A stretch of DNA of 64,000 bases from a virus. The DNA lies in IMG/VR virus record IMGVR_UViG_3300025087_000001, positions 1-64,000 of that record. One strand, written 5' to 3'. Below, one piece after another: positions 7,844 to 52,920 of this stretch. Under the pieces are notes generated by a model. The model had not been told where the DNA came from and searched no databases. It saw nothing but the letters and a program-made list of their open reading frames with translations. The position numbers and the translations under genes are program-made. Positions within the stretch are counted from its first letter, which is position 1. Each line of letters opens with the position of its first letter.

Positions 7844-7868
7844 CATAATTGGGAGATTGTGGTAGTTT
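7840..7868 (+). promoter_or_regulatory. Promoter TTGACA-17-TAGTTT with TGTGG
   Basis: TTGACA at 7840-7845 overlaps the polymerase stop codon; TGTGG leads into TAGTTT at 7863-7868 with a 17-bp spacer. Drives the signal-peptide protease gene and probably the downstream replication genes. Confidence 0.7.
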
Positions 7869-7884
7869 AATGGTAGGAGTAGTT

Positions 7885-8592
7885 ATGAAATATATTCTTA
7901 TTGTCCTACTACTAATCAACATTGGTTGGTCAGAAGATCGTATTAAAATAGGTATTATAGATTCTGGCATTAGTATTGTCCAAGCAGAAAACCCTATCCT
8001 ATGTCGTAATGGGTTAAAATCATTCGTACCAGACAGTTCTGGATACGACTCACATGGTCATGGAACCAATATCTTTGGCCTAGTATCTTCAGGCTTAGAT
8101 AGTAAAAAATATTGTATTGTGTCCTATAAAGTTTGGAATTACGATATTACTGCCCGACAATCTTTGCAATATACCATAAAAGCATTAAAACAAGCTAATA
8201 TAGACGGGTTAAGTTATTTAAATATATCTATGAGTGGTGGTGGATACGAGCATAAAGAATTTCTGGAATTAGAGAAGATAACTCATAAGACAATGGTAAT
8301 AGTAGCATCTGGTAATGAAAATAGGGATTTAGACAATATTTGTGATATTTATCCGGCTTGTTATGGAACAATATTAAGTAAAAATTTTTACTCGGTTGGA
8401 GCGATAGACACTGAATCTTCTAATTATGGATCAATAGTTACCTGTTACACAAAAGGCTTACAGATGGGAACACCTGTATTATCAGGTACATCTCAAGCGA
8501 CAGCATATTTTACTAATTTTTTAATAAAAAATAATAAAAATATGGTATATAAGAGAAAGGAAGGTAAGAATGTACGACCCAATTGTTTCTGA
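7885..8592 (+). CDS. Secreted subtilisin-like serine protease
   Basis: 235 residues from ATG 7885, which has GGAG upstream; starting here exposes a signal peptide (MKYILIVLLLINIGWS, cleavage near residue 16). The S8 triad is complete: IIDSGI (Asp), DSHGHGTN (His), SGTSQATAYF (Ser), with oxyanion Asn in VASGNEN. The protein ends about 30 residues after the catalytic Ser, making it a minimal catalytic domain. It presumably acts outside the cytoplasm. A protease of this type inside a replication operon, with its own promoter, is unexpected. Confidence 0.88.
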   Translation: MKYILIVLLLINIGWSEDRIKIGIIDSGISIVQAENPILCRNGLKSFVPDSSGYDSHGHGTNIFGLVSSGLDSKKYCIVSYKVWNYDITARQSLQYTIKALKQANIDGLSYLNISMSGGGYEHKEFLELEKITHKTMVIVASGNENRDLDNICDIYPACYGTILSKNFYSVGAIDTESSNYGSIVTCYTKGLQMGTPVLSGTSQATAYFTNFLIKNNKNMVYKRKEGKNVRPNCF

Positions 8593-40907: not shown

Positions 40908-43589
40908 TTATAAATTCACATCAAAATTAATTGGAAGAATTCCCGATTGATTTGCTAGTTTTACAGCCATATCTATTGCTAAGGTTGGTCCAACTAGTTT
41001 TATAGTTATTCTTTCTATAGAATCAAATCGTGGATCGTCTTCTATCATTTTATTTAAAGCCTTAATTATTTCGCCATTTTCTATATCCGCTACTGACATT
41101 CCATGTTCTAATCCCAATCCATAATCTAAATGTCTAAGTAGTGTTCCTTTTTTAATTTTAATTTTCAACTTTAAAGCCTGTATTAAATTAGTTAAACCAT
41201 TGGATAATCTTAAATCTCCTACTGAATTAATGGCCAAATCACCCTGATCAGTTAATAACCAATCTACTTTGGACAATTTGGTTAAATGTTTTTCGTCCAA
41301 ATATGGTATTTCAAAAGTTCTATCATCTTCCTCAGCAGGTGTATTAATAGGTATATAGATTTGGTTTTGGCTATTTGCTGTTCCTGGTAAATAACCTTGT
41401 AATTTAGCGGCTCCGGCAGTAGTTAAATTATCTAAATTATCTAAACCATCTACTGTTATCAGGTAGTTAGTGTCGCTAATTTTCTCTACATTAATTATCT
41501 TTCTTATAAATGCGGGTACAGTGTTGGACGACAATACAATATTTTGCCCAATATATAATTGATTTAAACTATCGTCAACTGTTATTTGTCTACCTTCTCC
41601 ATTACTTAATAAATTATAGTAAAAGCCCTCCTCATCTATATAAGGGGATCTTAAATTATTTAACGTTACGATCTCAATCCATCTATCGGGGTTCCCTAAA
41701 TATCTTGCCGCAATTTCCTCAATAGTTAAGCCAAAAGGAACGGGGGCTAAGTATTTGGAAGTATATTGTTCAAAATTAATTCCAGCTTCGTTGGCCAATC
41801 CACCAACATATTCTAATGGACTCTCTATCTTATTGTCGTCCCATTCTTTAGTAGCAATCAGAAGGTCGTAGGATTGAATAGCTTCCATTAAGGATTCTAA
41901 TATTTCATTTTCTTCCAAGGTCATGGGAATGATTCTTTCTTTTGGGTCGGGTAGCCCATAAACATCTGAATATGTTTGATTACCGGCACCAAAATAATTA
42001 GATAGATCATTCATTAATTTTTCTAACTCATTTCTCGATTCTCTATGGTCATTAACGGTTGTTAGTCTAATTATCTCTAACTCATTATCAACCAAGGCTT
42101 GTTGTTGTGGGGTTAAAATTAAATCGTCTAAACTAACTGAATTAAATAACTCAAAATTTTCTTCTGGGTTTTCAAATACAGAGTCTAAAGCGCTAGTTTG
42201 TAATGATTGCGAAGCTTCTAGTCCCAACGCCCCATCTGCAACGGCTTGAGTGCTTAAGCCCTCGAAACGATTAGATTCCGATACTATAGCGTTAACCGCC
42301 GCTCCTGCCCCAGCAGTAAGACTTTGTGTTTTTATATTAATACCAATAGAAGAAATACTATTACCGGTCGAAACTCTATTACCACCATTATCTACACCAC
42401 GTTTAAAGGCATTTTTTGTTATAGATAAGGATTCCTTAATAGAACTTTTATAATCACCAATTATAGAACTTGGAAGGTCTACTACCGCAAATGCTAAGCC
42501 ACCCAAATCTTTCACTGCTAAGGCGGTTTGTCTTAAAATATCTAACGGTTTTCTAAAGTCACTCCTTACCGCTCTAAGCAAATTCATAGAAGCTGCCAAA
42601 GTAGCCCTAGCTCCGTTTATTCCCGTAATTATTCTTTGTAATGCGTTAGGAGATAAATCTGGTAATTCAGCCTTTACCCCAGTTTCGTTAGTGGAAATAT
42701 CAACCCGTTTCCACGCTTTAAGTTGAAAACTAAATATTACCTCATTAGGTCTTTGTTGGTTTTGATTCCAATTAAATGTTAGCGGGGTAACTATAAATGA
42801 TTGATTTTGCTTAGGAATATTAAATACTAAGCGCCAATGTTTGTTAACCGCTTTCTTTTTTTCCTGAGCATATCTTTCAAAAAACTGTGCCATCAGATGG
42901 GCTTTGTAATATCCTGTTTCTGTTAAGCTACCTGTAGATTGTGGAGAAGCGGCGTCGGCCAATCGATTAGGGTGTTGTCCAGTAAAAGCACTTTGGACCT
43001 GTTTAATTCCTTGTACAACACCGGTTAATGCTTCAAATGTGCCGCCAAACAAAGATCCTAAAATTGTGGGTGATTTTAATTTAGCACCTTGTGTTGGTCT
43101 ATTTGGCCAAATACCTGTAGTTCCTTGAACTGAAATTAATTTAAATTTAACCCCATTATGCTCTTCTACCACACCACGCATTGTAGCCGAAGTGTTAATG
43201 GCAAACTGGTCAGTAATACTCAATTGTTGGGGGGTTATTGGCAAATCAACAATCCAACCAAGCGATTGGGTCATGGTCTGTGTTAATGAAAAGTCAGTAC
43301 CGTGTTGGAAATATGAGGTATCTACATCCATAGGACGCATAGTGCCCCCTTCGGACGTAATTACTCTTTTTGTACGAATATCTATAACCATTAGTCGGTA
43401 TGGGTAAACCCTATCCCACCTTTTACCATCTATAAAATTGGCTGGAAAAAAAGACTCTTCTTTTTTGGACTTATTAATGTCCCAAGGCTCTACCTGGGCA
43501 CTAATTCCGGTTGATTTTTCTTTAGAGGACGAATCATTAAAACCTAATTGATTATTGACCCAATCCTGCGCTTTATCAAACAAACCCAT
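40908..43589 (-). CDS. Baseplate fusion: gp53/LysM-like region plus gp25-like domain
   Basis: 893 residues. N-terminal region (residues ~55-300) is a baseplate-type beta domain; a LysM-like segment (FGLTIEEIAARYLGNPDRW, near residue 655) resembles that of gp53-type wedge proteins; the last ~120 residues (from LTDQGDLAINSVGDLRLSNG, with GTLLRHLDYGLGLEHGMS) match the gp25/W lysozyme-like wedge domain. A fusion of two wedge proteins normally encoded separately. First gene of the main tail transcript. Confidence 0.8.
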   Translation of the reverse strand: MGLFDKAQDWVNNQLGFNDSSSKEKSTGISAQVEPWDINKSKKEESFFPANFIDGKRWDRVYPYRLMVIDIRTKRVITSEGGTMRPMDVDTSYFQHGTDFSLTQTMTQSLGWIVDLPITPQQLSITDQFAINTSATMRGVVEEHNGVKFKLISVQGTTGIWPNRPTQGAKLKSPTILGSLFGGTFEALTGVVQGIKQVQSAFTGQHPNRLADAASPQSTGSLTETGYYKAHLMAQFFERYAQEKKKAVNKHWRLVFNIPKQNQSFIVTPLTFNWNQNQQRPNEVIFSFQLKAWKRVDISTNETGVKAELPDLSPNALQRIITGINGARATLAASMNLLRAVRSDFRKPLDILRQTALAVKDLGGLAFAVVDLPSSIIGDYKSSIKESLSITKNAFKRGVDNGGNRVSTGNSISSIGINIKTQSLTAGAGAAVNAIVSESNRFEGLSTQAVADGALGLEASQSLQTSALDSVFENPEENFELFNSVSLDDLILTPQQQALVDNELEIIRLTTVNDHRESRNELEKLMNDLSNYFGAGNQTYSDVYGLPDPKERIIPMTLEENEILESLMEAIQSYDLLIATKEWDDNKIESPLEYVGGLANEAGINFEQYTSKYLAPVPFGLTIEEIAARYLGNPDRWIEIVTLNNLRSPYIDEEGFYYNLLSNGEGRQITVDDSLNQLYIGQNIVLSSNTVPAFIRKIINVEKISDTNYLITVDGLDNLDNLTTAGAAKLQGYLPGTANSQNQIYIPINTPAEEDDRTFEIPYLDEKHLTKLSKVDWLLTDQGDLAINSVGDLRLSNGLTNLIQALKLKIKIKKGTLLRHLDYGLGLEHGMSVADIENGEIIKALNKMIEDDPRFDSIERITIKLVGPTLAIDMAVKLANQSGILPINFDVNL

Positions 43590-43727: not shown

Positions 43728-44246
43728 ATGAGATATTTAGTAATTTTATTGTTTTTAATATTTAGCTGTTCGGGCGTTACTCCAACCCAACCAAAAAATG
43801 AAGAATTTAATCCATATTTGGAAAGGTTTATTTTTGAGGCTAGAATATCTAAAGAAGAAATTGACAATAAAATTCATTTAGAATTTCATAAATATCCCGA
43901 CAAGTCAACCGTAATTGGAACATGTAATTTAGGCGTGTACAAAAATGTAGTTTGGATTAATATTGACTGGTGGAACAGAAGAGATGTTTCTGACTATAAA
44001 AGAGAGGCTATGGTTTTTCACGAACTCGGTCATTGTTATTTATTTAGAGACCATACTTTTGAAATAAAGAACGAAAGTTCAATATCGTCTTGGTTTAACG
44101 AATTATTAGTAGAATTAGGGCTCAAGTCTGATAAAAAATATCTTTATGATGGTTGTCCAATATCTTTGATGCACCCCTATGTTTTGTCTAACAGATGTTA
44201 TATTGATCATTACGATTATTATATGAAAGAATTGTTTAGGAGATAA
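43728..44246 (+). CDS. Metzincin-like lipoprotein protease
   Basis: 172 residues. Signal and lipobox MRYLVILLFLIFSCSG (lipidated Cys 14). Zinc-binding motif FHELGHCYLFRDH (HExxH with a further His) and, ~60 residues later, DGCPISLMHP, which suits a Met-turn. A paralogue (47984-48442) conserves both plus the C-terminal YYMxELF. Lipid anchoring puts the enzyme in the cell envelope, so it may remodel the surface of the infected host or act at release. Translation may depend on a hairpin-bridged ribosome-binding site. Confidence 0.75.
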   Translation: MRYLVILLFLIFSCSGVTPTQPKNEEFNPYLERFIFEARISKEEIDNKIHLEFHKYPDKSTVIGTCNLGVYKNVVWINIDWWNRRDVSDYKREAMVFHELGHCYLFRDHTFEIKNESSISSWFNELLVELGLKSDKKYLYDGCPISLMHPYVLSNRCYIDHYDYYMKELFRR

Positions 44247-44248
44247 TA

Positions 44249-44551
44249 GTGGATATAAAGAAATACATAGATCTAGCCCTATCTTCTTTGGAAAAGGCTA
44301 ATTATTACAGCGAGATACCTAAAGAACAATTGGAAAACACGCTAACTAACCATATTGAATATATGTACTTAAAAGAAATGGAAATAGTGTCTCTTCAAAT
44401 AGACGCCGATAGGGTTGGGGGTAAGGCTTGGACATCCAAACAATATGATGAGGCGATAGATAATGTGACTAATACGGTTTTAAACGAAGTTTATGAAATA
44501 GCCCTAACTAATCCTAATTTTAGCCTTAAAAAACTAAAGAAGCCTGTATAA
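44249..44551 (+). CDS. Small hypothetical protein
   Basis: 100 residues from GTG 44249 (AGGAGATAATA upstream). Helical, charged, no Cys. Second gene of a two-gene plus-strand unit; its end overlaps the converging gene by 18 nt. Function unknown. Confidence 0.7.
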   Translation: MDIKKYIDLALSSLEKANYYSEIPKEQLENTLTNHIEYMYLKEMEIVSLQIDADRVGGKAWTSKQYDEAIDNVTNTVLNEVYEIALTNPNFSLKKLKKPV

Positions 44552-45850
44552 TCTAGCATTAATTAATCTTGTATATTTTTTCGATATATTTTGATCCAAA
44601 AAAACCGTACTATTTTCTTTATTGATAATATTAGCAGATATTTCTTCTTGATTGTCAGCTACCACATAAATAGCGTTTCCAATACTAAAATTAGTAGCAT
44701 CCATTAGGTGTATCACATTAGTTCCTGCTGCTGGAGCCCTAAAAAGAGACGCCTTCATTATTCCATCATATGTATTGGCGGCAATATTATTGGCATCTTG
44801 CATTTGTTGTTGAGCAGCCTGTCCCTGCTCTAAGCCCTTCAATTCAGTTAAAGATCCCATTAAAATATGTAATCTTAAGGTAATAAAGCCAAATCTAGTT
44901 CCGTAAAATCCAGACGAACTAGTGATTGACCCATCTGTTAAATTTTGCACAATAGTTCCAAGATAAGAATTTAGCTGGGCCATTCTGATAGTTAAAAAAG
45001 CCTGTCGAGCAGTTAATTCGTCTTTTAATGGTTGTAATTCAGCAGCCCTAAACTTAGTAGGATTTAAAAGATTTACATCGTAAGAATTAAAACCCGCTGC
45101 TGTAGTTTGACCATGGTTAGTATCAAAATCAGCTAGTGCTTGCCAAACATCTATTATTGATATAGCGCTAGTGATATCGGCTTTAGATGCTATATTTTGT
45201 GCTGACCTAGTTATGTCCGTATCGGTAGTTACTATTTGGGAAAACAAAGTGTTTATAAAATCTTCCCAATCTTGAACGGCATTTTTGCAGCTAGTAGCGG
45301 CGGCTTGCATAGGGGCGTAATCCTCAATAATATCGGGATCGGGAAATACCCCAGCAATCGCATGTTGCCCTGTACTTCTAGTTATATCCGTAAATGTTTC
45401 AATAGTAGTAATATACGATAAGATAGAATCGATCTTATCTTGTTCCTTAGTAATTACAGCGTAGGACTCGTCAAACTTCCTTCCTAGGGCGCTGGTATAG
45501 GCATATGGTAAAAACTGAGTCCAAACTCCGTTTGGTAAATTGGGAGTTGGAGTAAGTGGGTCGTTCGGAAAAAATGGGTTATTTTTAATTCTATTAACCG
45601 AATCTGTAAAGTCCTGCTCTGTTAATTCTGTCCTCTGATTCCCATCGTATTTCCCTAATTCTACCTGATAACCATTAATCAATAAAACATCGGAATCAAC
45701 AAATTTCTTATGAGCATTGTCTTTGGATTGTACTGCGATCTTAATAGTCCCAAGACTATCCTTAATTCCTTCAAATTGAGCGTTTTCGCCAGGAATTTTA
45801 ACTACTTTTTCGGAAATTCTAATTCGTTCGTCTTGTGTTAGTGCTACCAT
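44534..45850 (-). CDS. Baseplate- or tail-associated structural protein
   Basis: 438 residues, largely helical (coiled segments with AQ and Asn-rich composition), with a C-terminal ~55-residue beta part (VIHLMDATNFSIGNAIYVVA). Placed between dNMP kinase and the baseplate cluster on the same strand. The ATG has no clear Shine-Dalgarno and directly follows AATCTTTAATCT. Structural role inferred from composition and position. Confidence 0.62.
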   Translation of the reverse strand: MVALTQDERIRISEKVVKIPGENAQFEGIKDSLGTIKIAVQSKDNAHKKFVDSDVLLINGYQVELGKYDGNQRTELTEQDFTDSVNRIKNNPFFPNDPLTPTPNLPNGVWTQFLPYAYTSALGRKFDESYAVITKEQDKIDSILSYITTIETFTDITRSTGQHAIAGVFPDPDIIEDYAPMQAAATSCKNAVQDWEDFINTLFSQIVTTDTDITRSAQNIASKADITSAISIIDVWQALADFDTNHGQTTAAGFNSYDVNLLNPTKFRAAELQPLKDELTARQAFLTIRMAQLNSYLGTIVQNLTDGSITSSSGFYGTRFGFITLRLHILMGSLTELKGLEQGQAAQQQMQDANNIAANTYDGIMKASLFRAPAAGTNVIHLMDATNFSIGNAIYVVADNQEEISANIINKENSTVFLDQNISKKYTRLINARLYRLL

Positions 45851-45853
45851 AGA

Positions 45854-46531
45854 TTAAAGATTGCAATTCACTTTATCCAAAATATTAAATAATTCTTGTT
45901 TTGTCTGCTCTCTGGTCCCATTATTATCTACTTTAATACACTTGTCTTTAAAAAGAAAAACCGATGTTTCTGAAACGTGGGAATCTTTAGTAACTTGAGA
46001 TTCTGCTTTTTCTCTAGCTAGATACAGAGGTATGAACTTATAGCCTTCTTTATTAGAGAAGTAGTTGTATTCATTGGGAAAACGAGCGTCAGATATTAAC
46101 GTCACATCCTCACCGAGTTCTAAATTTTTGCAGTGAATATCTTCATCTCCCATAGCCCTAAGTACCTGTGTGCCTACTATTTGTGCAATATGTCTAGCCG
46201 ATTCTAATTCCATGCCAACAATATTTTTAAACTTTTCGGCAATTTCGGGTAGACTAATGTCGTACCCAAAAGAACTAATTACCCTTCTGATATCAGAACT
46301 ATACAATTCTTGTTTAAAATTAAATATCCTAAACGGTATTTCCTTATATCTTTGATCGTCAAAAGTATTGCGTGGGATACCAAACGCCATAGAACAAACA
46401 TCTTTTAATTTATCGGCTAAGGCAGCTTCAACAACCTGTCTACCCTTATTTTCGTAATATTCTTTTATATATTGAGTTGCTGTAGACTTACCAGACGTTT
46501 TTACTCCTGCAATACACACGATTGTTTTCAT
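45854..46531 (-). CDS. Deoxynucleoside monophosphate kinase
   Basis: 225 residues. P-loop GVKTSGKSTAT, then ALADKLKDVCSMAFGIP, ARHIAQIVGTQVLR and ISDARFPNEY as in T4 gp1-type dNMP kinases. It phosphorylates dNMPs to dNDPs, which the NDP kinase at 51.1-51.7 kb could complete to dNTPs for phage replication. Ends 3 bases before the gene at 45850. Confidence 0.85.
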   Translation of the reverse strand: MKTIVCIAGVKTSGKSTATQYIKEYYENKGRQVVEAALADKLKDVCSMAFGIPRNTFDDQRYKEIPFRIFNFKQELYSSDIRRVISSFGYDISLPEIAEKFKNIVGMELESARHIAQIVGTQVLRAMGDEDIHCKNLELGEDVTLISDARFPNEYNYFSNKEGYKFIPLYLAREKAESQVTKDSHVSETSVFLFKDKCIKVDNNGTREQTKQELFNILDKVNCNL

Positions 46532-46555
46532 GCTTCCCCTTGGTTTGAATTGTTA

Positions 46556-47245
46556 TTATTTATTTACTTTCTTTAATTCTTTCAGACAATCCATTAGGTC
46601 GTTTGCTCTTTTGATTATCTCTTCATCTACCTCACAACTTCTATTGTGGGCTTTGGTGATTAAAAAAACGTTTTTAACCCTACAGTTTTCCGCCACATCT
46701 TGAACAGTACTAGCCTTGTCATCCGCAAACATTACTATTTGATATTTCTTAGCAAGATCTTTGATAGTTTTTACCTTATCGTTAGAAAAATACAATTCAT
46801 CACAATAAATATCTTGATCGGCTAAGTTATATTCGGTGGCTACTCTAAATTTCTCATTCCTAGCCGTAACAATAATGACTTTATATCCAATCTCATGAGC
46901 GGTATCTAAAGTGTATTTAGCATAATCTAATGGTTTTAATGCGGCATACATACCGTTCTCTTCATATAGTTTAAACGTAGCTCTTAGGTCGGCTCCCGTT
47001 ACTCTATTCCCCCTAGCATCTGTTATGTCTAAGTCATCAAAATTCCAAGTTTTTATATCATTATGGCTAACACATGTTCCATACTTTTTATTGTGGGCCT
47101 TACATAATGCCTGTAAAAAGCCTACAACTGTATCGTCATAGTCAACAACAATTGCCTTATCTTTTTTAGGTGATTTTTTCTTATCCGCCGATCTATCCAC
47201 GATTCTTTCATTTGTCTTTTCTGTAGGTTGAACTAAATCTATCAT
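46556..47245 (-). CDS. HAD-superfamily phosphatase / 5'-nucleotidase-like
   Basis: 229 residues. Basic N-terminal ~30 residues, then motif I VVDYDDTVVG (DxDxT), motif II VIIVTARNE, and motif IV VMFADDKAST. Cap insertion between I and II is ~60 residues. Substrate unknown; nucleotide dephosphorylation is plausible next to dNMP kinase. Promoter TATGGTATATT lies 16 nt upstream. Confidence 0.82.
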   Translation of the reverse strand: MIDLVQPTEKTNERIVDRSADKKKSPKKDKAIVVDYDDTVVGFLQALCKAHNKKYGTCVSHNDIKTWNFDDLDITDARGNRVTGADLRATFKLYEENGMYAALKPLDYAKYTLDTAHEIGYKVIIVTARNEKFRVATEYNLADQDIYCDELYFSNDKVKTIKDLAKKYQIVMFADDKASTVQDVAENCRVKNVFLITKAHNRSCEVDEEIIKRANDLMDCLKELKKVNK

Positions 47246-47260
47246 TTTATCTCCTACCTT

Positions 47261-47271
47261 AATATACCATA
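47261..47271 (-). promoter_or_regulatory. Extended -10 promoter TATGGTATATT
   Basis: Minus-strand TATGGTATATT, 16 nt before the HAD gene start; the AAGGTAGGAG Shine-Dalgarno follows. It lies in the 28-bp gap after the phosphatase gene. Confidence 0.65.
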
Positions 47272-47273
47272 AA

Positions 47274-47984
47274 TTACTTATGATCTATATTTTCTTGTTG
47301 ATAAATAATCATTTCTGGAAACTGTAATGCGGTTAAGTGCCCTAAGGATTTTTCCTTAGAGAACACGCATCCTGTATCTATATTAGCATATGTTTTCTTA
47401 ATCTTTGGTTGACTATTTGGAGTATGTCCAATAACACTAAAAATATCTCCAACATATCTAAGGTTGTAAGGCCTATCCCACAATATTACGTTTTTATATT
47501 TAGTTCCTACCTCTCCATTGTTAGCTTGTATCCCATGCCAACAGTTAATAATATGGCTATGGCTAACTACCAAATGCCTACCTTCTCCAACCACACTTTT
47601 AAACTCTAAATAAGTAGGTAATCTCTCCATCCATTTTATATCTGACGAAACAGCGTCACTATCTACACTATCATTAGTCTGATACGACCTTAACGTTTCC
47701 ACTCCGCCATTTAATAACCATACATTGCCATATAAGGACAGTGCGATTTTATGGCTGTGATTGTTCAATACTTTATATTCATCTATCATCATTTGTTCAT
47801 GATTACCCATAACACATTGGTAACCACTTAATCTAACAAACTCCACAACCCCTCTAGAATTTGGACCTCGATCTATTAAATCTCCAACAAAACAAACACC
47901 TTTGTCTTTTTCTGATTGAGGGATTTTGTCCAATAAAGACTTTAAAGTTTCTAGACAACCGTGAACATCTCCTATTATTATCAT
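47274..47984 (-). CDS. Lambda-type protein/nucleotide phosphatase (PPP family)
   Basis: 236 residues. GDVHGCLE, GDLIDRGPNSRG, MGNHEQMM, VVSHSHI and IGHTPN make a full PPP metal centre like lambda phosphatase, which hydrolyses phospho-proteins and nucleotide esters. The start shares the single base 47984 with the stop of the upstream gene. Cytoplasmic. Target unknown. Confidence 0.87.
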   Translation of the reverse strand: MIIIGDVHGCLETLKSLLDKIPQSEKDKGVCFVGDLIDRGPNSRGVVEFVRLSGYQCVMGNHEQMMIDEYKVLNNHSHKIALSLYGNVWLLNGGVETLRSYQTNDSVDSDAVSSDIKWMERLPTYLEFKSVVGEGRHLVVSHSHIINCWHGIQANNGEVGTKYKNVILWDRPYNLRYVGDIFSVIGHTPNSQPKIKKTYANIDTGCVFSKEKSLGHLTALQFPEMIIYQQENIDHK

Positions 47985-48442
47985 TAATTACTCCACATAA
48001 AAAGTTCATCCATATAATATTTAAAGTGTTTTTTATAACACAGACTAGGGAATGATTTATAATACATTATAGACCTTGGACAGCCGTCAGTCAGAATTGG
48101 ATTTTCAGAAAAATCATGGTTTCTCTTTAAAATATGGTGGCCCAATTCGTGAGATATTAAAATAAACCTACCCATATTGTCAAGAGTTATCCAATGATTG
48201 ATACTTATCGTAGTTTGATCGGTATCTCTGCGATAGACTCCCGAAGCGGATTTACTATCTGGTATTTCTCCTAATTCCACAACAATAGTTGGTTGGATAG
48301 AACTGTGTCTATATACCTTATAGTAAGTATTAAATTGCTCTATATATGGTTTTAATTCAGTCGATACGTTAGGATATTTAATCGGCTTAGGAACAACGCT
48401 AGCACATCCTACTAATAATAACAAAATCAACAACTGTTTCAT
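47984..48442 (-). CDS. Metzincin-like lipoprotein protease, second copy
   Basis: 152 residues. Signal and lipobox MKQLLILLLLVGCASV (Cys 13), ISHELGHHILKRNHD (HExxH with a further His), then DGCPRSIMYY (Met-turn-like). Paralogous to 43728-44246 with matching C-terminus (YYMDELF versus YYMKELF). The two copies lie on opposite strands ~4 kb apart. Likely envelope-localised metalloprotease. Confidence 0.75.
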   Translation of the reverse strand: MKQLLILLLLVGCASVVPKPIKYPNVSTELKPYIEQFNTYYKVYRHSSIQPTIVVELGEIPDSKSASGVYRRDTDQTTISINHWITLDNMGRFILISHELGHHILKRNHDFSENPILTDGCPRSIMYYKSFPSLCYKKHFKYYMDELFMWSN

Positions 48443-52216: not shown

Positions 52217-52402
52217 TTAATACTCTTGATCACGACCCATATTTCTATAATAAAACTCGTTTTCGTATTCTTCCATTTCTCTCAATATCTCATTAACACA
52301 ACTATCACAAATATTTTCGTCTTCACCTTGATACAACTCACCACACCTTTGGCACTTTTTCTTCTGACTATTTATAAATGCATAATACTTAACTTCGCAC
52401 AT
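52217..52402 (-). CDS. Small zinc-binding protein
   Basis: 61 residues. KKCQRCGELYQGEDENICDSC carries two CxxC knuckles 14 residues apart, a zinc ribbon, then an acidic helix. Overlaps the CPBP gene by one base upstream. Adaptor or regulatory role possible; not determined. Confidence 0.72.
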   Translation of the reverse strand: MCEVKYYAFINSQKKKCQRCGELYQGEDENICDSCVNEILREMEEYENEFYYRNMGRDQEY

Positions 52403-52920
52403 TATTTACCTACCTGATAATTAGACAATACAGTCGTATAATAGGTTATAAAATCATACAAAACATGACACATCATAACCGTTCCAAAACCAAACCTTAG
52501 TGAGTACTTGCACGAAATAAGGTATGGATATAAAATTGTTACTAATGCCCAAGAATATCCTAAGTAAACATGTTGACTAGCAAAAAATAATGAAAATCCG
52601 ATAGCAATAGGTATCCAAAACCACTTGTTTTTACTTATATACTGCTTAAATAGATAAATTGGCGCTGCAAAGGCCAAGTCTTCTAACCATACCAACATAA
52701 ACACCCACGGCTCTGTTTTACTTAGTATTTTTTCATCTACAATTGGTCCGGCACCAACGCTTAACATAAAAGAATTCAGACCTAATCGAGCGCAAATCAC
52801 CAGAGCCATGAAAGCTAAAAATTTAGATATAGCTGAAAAATCCACCCTCAACATGTCTTTTTCTTTAAATGAAAGAAAAACTAAGCTAAATATTGCCATG
52901 GAAAGTAAGAATATATCCAT
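52402..52920 (-). CDS. CPBP-like (CAAX-type) membrane protein
   Basis: 172 residues with five or six hydrophobic segments. Motifs resemble CPBP intramembrane metalloproteases: WLEDLAFAAP where EExxxR is usual (second Glu is Asp, Arg missing), FASQHVYLG (FxxxH) and CHVLYDF (HxxxD). The weakened first motif leaves activity open. In bacteria, CPBP proteins act on membrane peptides and bacteriocin immunity; a phage copy could interfere with envelope signalling. One-base overlap with both neighbours. Confidence 0.6.
   Translation of the reverse strand: MDIFLLSMAIFSLVFLSFKEKDMLRVDFSAISKFLAFMALVICARLGLNSFMLSVGAGPIVDEKILSKTEPWVFMLVWLEDLAFAAPIYLFKQYISKNKWFWIPIAIGFSLFFASQHVYLGYSWALVTILYPYLISCKYSLRFGFGTVMMCHVLYDFITYYTTVLSNYQVGK

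Follow-up and report, generated by a model that had tools for sequence, protein, structure and literature searches.

The window, bases 1-64000 of the 155,481-base virus record IMGVR_UViG_3300025087_000001, encodes two related proteins, here called P1 and P2 (Table 1), which, as judged from their sequences, are probably zinc endopeptidases that are anchored in a membrane and, during infection, cleave proteins of the host envelope. Both belong to a zinc-peptidase family that is spread over many phages and bacteria and is undescribed in the libraries searched, and within a clade of about 120-177 kb phages P1 is an almost constant gene, kept in synteny and antisense. Phage attack on the cell wall is already known; a conserved attack on envelope proteins, if true, would be a different route to cell-surface takeover, and would open superinfection exclusion and release in uncultured phages to experimental testing.

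A preliminary description of this DNA had reported two open reading frames on opposite strands that share HELGH-x6-H, DGCPxSxM and YYMxELF, all of which was confirmed. P1 and P2 align over their full length with 29% identity (BLASTP, E 3e-15), the last of the shared motifs reading YYM[KD]ELF, and at the N-terminus each has a short, hydrophobic signal with a lipobox (IFSC in P1, LVGC in P2). Their portrayal as paralogues is upheld by this homology but does not extend to a recent duplication, which is unsupported because the two proteins fall in different branches among viral proteins, on a tree whose branches are themselves weakly supported. The resemblance is nevertheless more than chance, since a family profile finds 170 relatives among the fetched loci, and a sample collected without regard to the motif shows no variation at the zinc-site residues.

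Because a pattern-based sample is biased toward the His motif, claims of conservation rest on this motif-blind sample, consisting of 80 loci retrieved solely by the neighbouring gene for an 893-aa baseplate protein and containing 50 distinct P1 orthologues. His98, Glu99, His102 and His109 (P2 numbering) were present in 50/50 orthologues, compared to a median column conservation of 0.37. Cys121 was also found in 50/50, Asp119 and Cys135 in 49/50, and Met126 and E146 in 47/50 each. Candidate third zinc ligands are the invariant His six residues past HExxH and, being conserved as well, E146. Bacterial relatives displayed the third His in 83/83 cases, the Met in 81/83 and the C-terminal Glu in 82/83, none of which was included in the pattern used for the bacterial search, and almost all members of the wider family have an Arg two residues ahead of the third His.

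The cysteines and N-termini bear on where these proteins fold. Cys70 and Cys103 were concordant in 50/50 clade copies, with both present in 43, neither in 7, and never one singly. Such joint gain or loss is what a disulfide would show, and hence a protein that folds outside the cytoplasm. Using a simple scan, the signal peptide and lipobox Cys typical of bacterial lipoproteins were found in P1 (LIFSC) and P2 (LVGC), as well as a lipobox in about 42/50 clade members, the remainder having an N-terminal hydrophobic segment; the lipobox Cys aligned in 43/50. Asp at position +2, which in E. coli retains lipoproteins in the inner membrane, occurred in 0/42 lipobox members, although this rule may not suit the present host. 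The lipoboxes and the conserved putative zinc site are in agreement with the earlier view of P1 and P2 as envelope-anchored, zinc-protease-like lipoproteins.

AlphaFold models of P1 and P2 were confident, with predicted local distance difference test (pLDDT) values of 88 and 87, respectively, and their best solved neighbours were mostly zinc peptidases, namely selecase, jannalysin, abylysin, adamalysin, BlaR1 and Spartan. Fold comparison to predicted viral proteins identified a single unnamed phage protein that matches over the whole length. The pair had been termed metzincin-like. In common with metzincins (adamalysin/ADAM, archaemetzincin), P1 and P2 have an HExxH helix, a third His, and a Ser-x-Met that resembles the Met-turn and precedes a C-terminal helix, together with weak fold matches to adamalysin, ADAM-8 and archaemetzincin (Foldseek E 0.08 or worse, template modelling score about 0.35-0.40, for adamalysin/ADAM-8). 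Strict metzincin membership was not supported. The metzincin motif, HExxHxxGxxH, separates the second His from the third by five residues, whereas all members examined have HExxH-x6-H with no Gly at the motif position, and fold matches failed to reach E<0.001. What stands of the term is the Met-turn-like Ser-x-Met after the third His and the confident models with zinc-peptidase neighbours; P1 and P2 may work like metzincins, but are not classed among them. The minigluzincins (selecase, projannalysin, proabylysin) likewise possess a small single-domain zincin fold and are the best solved neighbours of P2 (E 0.008-0.04). Their third zinc ligand is Glu. The P1/P2 family differs from them in its invariant His after HExxH, and in its predicted export and probable disulfide bonding.

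Another parallel considered was Mtz of the Listeria mtz-tim pair, likewise an exported metallopeptidase of phage origin (PMC8235301). Acting with its TIMP-like lipoprotein, this phage-derived secreted metzincin renders Listeria more sensitive to phage lysins and raises virion release (PMC8235301). Mtz bears the canonical HEXXHXXGXXH, is secreted via Sec/SPI and has the TIMP-like lipoprotein as its partner, whereas in the case of P1 and P2 the protease is itself the lipoprotein. A TIMP-like partner was not seen among the immediate neighbours, which are a 100-aa protein lacking a signal peptide, another protein of 438 aa and a phosphatase, although no search for the TIMP fold was made.

Neither P1 nor P2 was claimed by any Pfam, PHROG or NCBIfam model in searches of these libraries. 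P1 scored 13.8 bits against PF18894 (PhageMetallopep), short of the gathering cut-off of 23.7, while P2 failed to match. Similarity to PF18894 was observed in 42/50 family members, but was local, mainly around the HExxH helix; in other members the matched stretch is about 33-70 residues long, and the score barely attains the cut-off in the best case. The phrog_87 metallo-protease model gave E 0.056 for P1 and E 6.5e-4 over only 62 residues for P2, with no significant full-length match. When used as queries against viral contigs and phage records, P1, P2 and the 438-aa protein returned zero relatives; these surfaced only via a DNA pattern for HELGHCxLxRxH and via the baseplate gene. The pattern identified 68 stretches in viral contigs, nearly all encoding the same protein build, mostly of 140-280 aa, and thereby about 65 viral relatives of P1 and P2. 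The string HELGHC was not found in the text of the papers searched, a weak negative given that sequences are seldom printed in papers.

Bacterial and archaeal genomes, when scanned, yielded 207 stretches encoding relatives. The taxonomy of the bacterial relatives rests on the 80 of these 207 that were retained, which were from Bacteroidota (mostly Saprospiraceae and Cytophagales), Bdellovibrionota and one Myxococcota. In the phylum of Halobacteriovorax, 14/78 genomes contained a match. The chromosomal lipoproteins of Saprospiraceae resemble P1 and P2 in family, HExxH-x6-H, Cys pair and C-terminal YxxELF, but differ in belonging to a bacterial operon, between sigma-factor-like and anti-sigma/FecR-like genes, instead of a phage. 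In about 10 Saprospiraceae loci the order, with neighbours named by eye, was a sigma-factor-like gene, the metallopeptidase lipoprotein, a FecR-like gene and a receptor-like gene; this operon-like row was seen in L118, L124, L128, L129, L130, L133 and others.

We next consider the position of P1. Together with the 100-aa gene it forms a plus-strand island within a long minus-strand block of tail and nucleotide-metabolism genes, which comprises genes for a Baseplate_J protein, the 893-aa and 438-aa proteins, a deoxynucleotide kinase, HAD and calcineurin-like phosphatases and a DNA ligase. P2 lies within the minus-strand block itself, in an operon with the DNA ligase, deoxynucleotide monophosphate kinase and phosphatases. 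Both genes flanking P1 were present in 45 of the 80 baseplate-fetched loci (28-58% identity), and an antisense peptidase was located between them in 39/45. Merging loci above 90% identity left 58 distinct ones with enough sequence: antisense P1 stood beside the baseplate gene in 47/58, was absent from 11/58 and was in the opposite orientation in 0, while 32/36 distinct loci with both flanks had P1. P1 is the more variable of the two neighbours, showing about 22-38% identity to its orthologues in the phages compared versus 41-54% for the baseplate protein. The lipoprotein peptidase family was represented in 18/20 clade contigs (121-177 kb), and several phages have second family copies elsewhere in the genome. 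Because P1 is kept at one fixed place across the clade, the view that it is a passenger gene (moron) was rejected as the main picture. Homologues of the 100-aa protein follow P1 in some relatives, and are also found where P1 is missing. Searches for promoters, terminators and Rfam families, and for an RNA fold at the P1 start, revealed nothing beyond expectation. In Myxococcus phage Mx1 a 'capsid decoration protein' occupies the P1 position; it is not a P1 relative. A PhoH gene with a PIN domain was seen on the antisense strand near the P1 position in L198, L199, L201, L208, L215, L250 and L272.

According to the mechanism that we favour, P1 and P2 would be Sec-exported, lipid-anchored zinc endopeptidases of an unnamed zincin family, using three His ligands in HExxH-x6-H, a catalytic Glu, a Ser-x-Met turn and a disulfide-stabilised domain. 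They would probably reside in the host envelope, perhaps in the outer membrane, and face the periplasm or the surface. Being produced during infection and not just at lysis, they would remove or inactivate surface and periplasmic proteins such as receptors, envelope defence proteins and protein tethers, and the most likely gain would be that superinfection is blocked and the envelope softened ahead of release. We infer cleavage during replication because P2 and a signal-peptide subtilase sit with replication and nucleotide genes, and P1 lies apart from the tail operon. Relatives keep antisense P1 along with other exported proteases, which suggests that envelope proteins are what is cut. Exclusion, release and host surface change, the roles suggested in the preliminary description, may each apply.

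These other proteases recur in the clade. The subtilase was present in 17/20 large clade contigs, with the catalytic triad and signal peptide in all 15 that were readable by scan, that of the window included, and directly followed DNA polymerase in 15/16 relatives. The clade also keeps a signal-peptide ClpP/SppA-like protein besides a shorter ClpP-like gene elsewhere; close homologues of the former have a signal or anchor segment in 10/10 cases, unlike the shorter ClpP-like copies. An Rce1-like gene was found in at least 32/80 loci, and in many related phages its homologues are located close to the gene for the 438-aa protein. It initially appeared to replace P1 where P1 is missing, but this was rejected since many phages have both. 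A broader and more tentative possibility is a clade-wide programme of envelope proteolysis, in which unrelated exported or membrane peptidases (the new lipoprotein zinc peptidase, subtilase, ClpP/SppA-like and Rce1-like proteins), two of them at fixed genome places, would strip surface proteins, exclude other phages and open one or two envelopes of probable deltaproteobacteria-like hosts, predatory or other.

Several observations weigh against envelope-protein cleavage by P1 and P2. No solved structure matched their models at E<0.001 in the fold comparison, P1 is absent from its position in 11/58 distinct loci, and Mx1 contained none of the clade's peptidases. Neighbours of the P1/P2 family include no partner family common to phages at large, and hence give no hint of the substrate. 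In addition, the Rce1-like call for the copy in the window falls below the Pfam cut-off, and the lysis-like cassette listed in Table 1 was named solely from size and hydrophobicity.

The main rival is a pure role in lysis or release, in which P1 and P2 would cut tethers between the outer membrane and cell wall or degrade outer envelope layers, replacing or helping a spanin. We regard this as the less probable of the two, and rather doubtful, even though the predicted envelope location would suit it, P1 is situated in the tail region, and Mtz-TIM may offer a precedent through its enhancement of virion release (PMC8235301). The tail genes run on the other strand from P1, P2 belongs to an operon for nucleotide metabolism, and the subtilase conserved in the clade is linked to DNA polymerase. 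Lysis families were absent from the most frequent families among 137 scanned immediate-neighbour proteins (a hydrophobicity scan was uninformative), and a separate lysis-like cassette is located elsewhere.

We likewise questioned whether the peptidases serve nutrition or predation, digesting prey or host envelope protein in a predatory host or freeing the virion from a second (prey) envelope. The nearest isolate relative, Mx1 (baseplate 31% and polymerase 36% identity), infects Myxococcus; a 42-kb contig binned in 1/241 genomes of the Halobacteriovorax phylum has the same gene order, including P1; and chromosomal relatives occur in Bdellovibrionota. Shine-Dalgarno-like sites precede 28/40 genes, in contrast to the ribosome-binding sites of Bacteroidota. 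A Bdellovibrionota-like host is thus probably the best guess, albeit weakly supported, as the call rests on that one binned contig in 241 genomes and weak similarity. Given also that the Myxococcus phage itself lacks the proteases, a predatory function is unlikely.

A role in processing exported or tail proteins of the phage itself, for instance in maturing a lipoprotein or the convergently encoded 438-aa protein, would fit the tight synteny that P1 shows with its 438-aa and baseplate neighbours, but is very improbable: P1 has an export signal whereas its neighbours resemble cytoplasmic virion parts, second copies exist elsewhere, and some phages retain both neighbours but are missing P1. That P1 and P2 are catalytically dead remnants or purely structural lipoproteins is scarcely credible, with His-Glu-His-His invariant in the 50 motif-blind orthologues and most other columns variable.

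A third HExxH protein, P3, had been placed beside this pair. It does adjoin P2, contains HEFCH and has no signal peptide, but kinship to P1 and P2 was rejected. No similarity between P3 and P1 or P2 was detected. H64, E65 and H68 together with downstream E123/E127 were invariant across four phage homologues, and its relatives in the jumbo phages XacN1, RAS14 and an uncultured 642-kb phage, which have invariant HExxH and Glu and no signal peptide, are cytosolic-looking. P3 therefore reads as a separate, cytosolic gluzincin-like protein.

Table 1. Positions and attributes of P1, P2 and other features; positions marked 'record' are those of the whole virus record, and those with an L number are those of the locus named.
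Feature	Position	Strand	Attributes
P1	43728..44246	+	172 aa; predicted lipoprotein zinc metallopeptidase, antisense between two tail genes; lipobox LIFSC; H98 E99 H102 H109; Met148; probable disulfides of C70-C103 and C121-C135 type (P2 numbering)
P2	47984..48442	-	152 aa; predicted second, divergent lipoprotein metallopeptidase of the P1 family; lipobox LVGC; H98 E99 H102 H109; Met126; lacks the C70/C103 pair, keeps C121/C135
P3	48445..49077	-	210 aa; TTG start; HEFCH; no signal peptide; 2 bp upstream of P2, same strand
893-aa baseplate protein	40908..43589	-	C-terminus resembles a sheath initiator (weak Pfam match); gene divergent from P1
100-aa protein	44249..44551	+	GTG start; directly downstream of P1
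438-aa protein	44534..45850	-	Tail/baseplate block; convergent with P1, flanks P1 across the clade
Subtilase	7849..8592	+	Signal peptide; DSG/HGT/GTS triad; above Pfam cut-off; 5 bp downstream of DNA polymerase
Rce1/CPBP-like protein	52402..52920	-	Multi-pass membrane protein; Pfam score below cut-off, L007 homologue above
ClpP/SppA-like protein	record 150343-151329 (L283:14844-15830)		Signal peptide; 48 bits versus cut-off 20.2
Possible lysis cassette	record 85924-87430		Small membrane proteins and a signal-anchor coiled protein; about 38 kb away
Collagen-like lipoproteins	record 81698-82063; L058:4979-5527; L065:3022-4158		Gly-x-y repeats
1080-aa protein	record 106946-110188		HEWGHFLDN zinc-type motif; no export signal

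Two minor observations concern other proteins of these phages. The record encodes a 1080-aa protein with a zinc-type motif. Collagen-like phage lipoproteins were also encountered, those in L058 and L065 directly adjoining a member of the metallopeptidase family.

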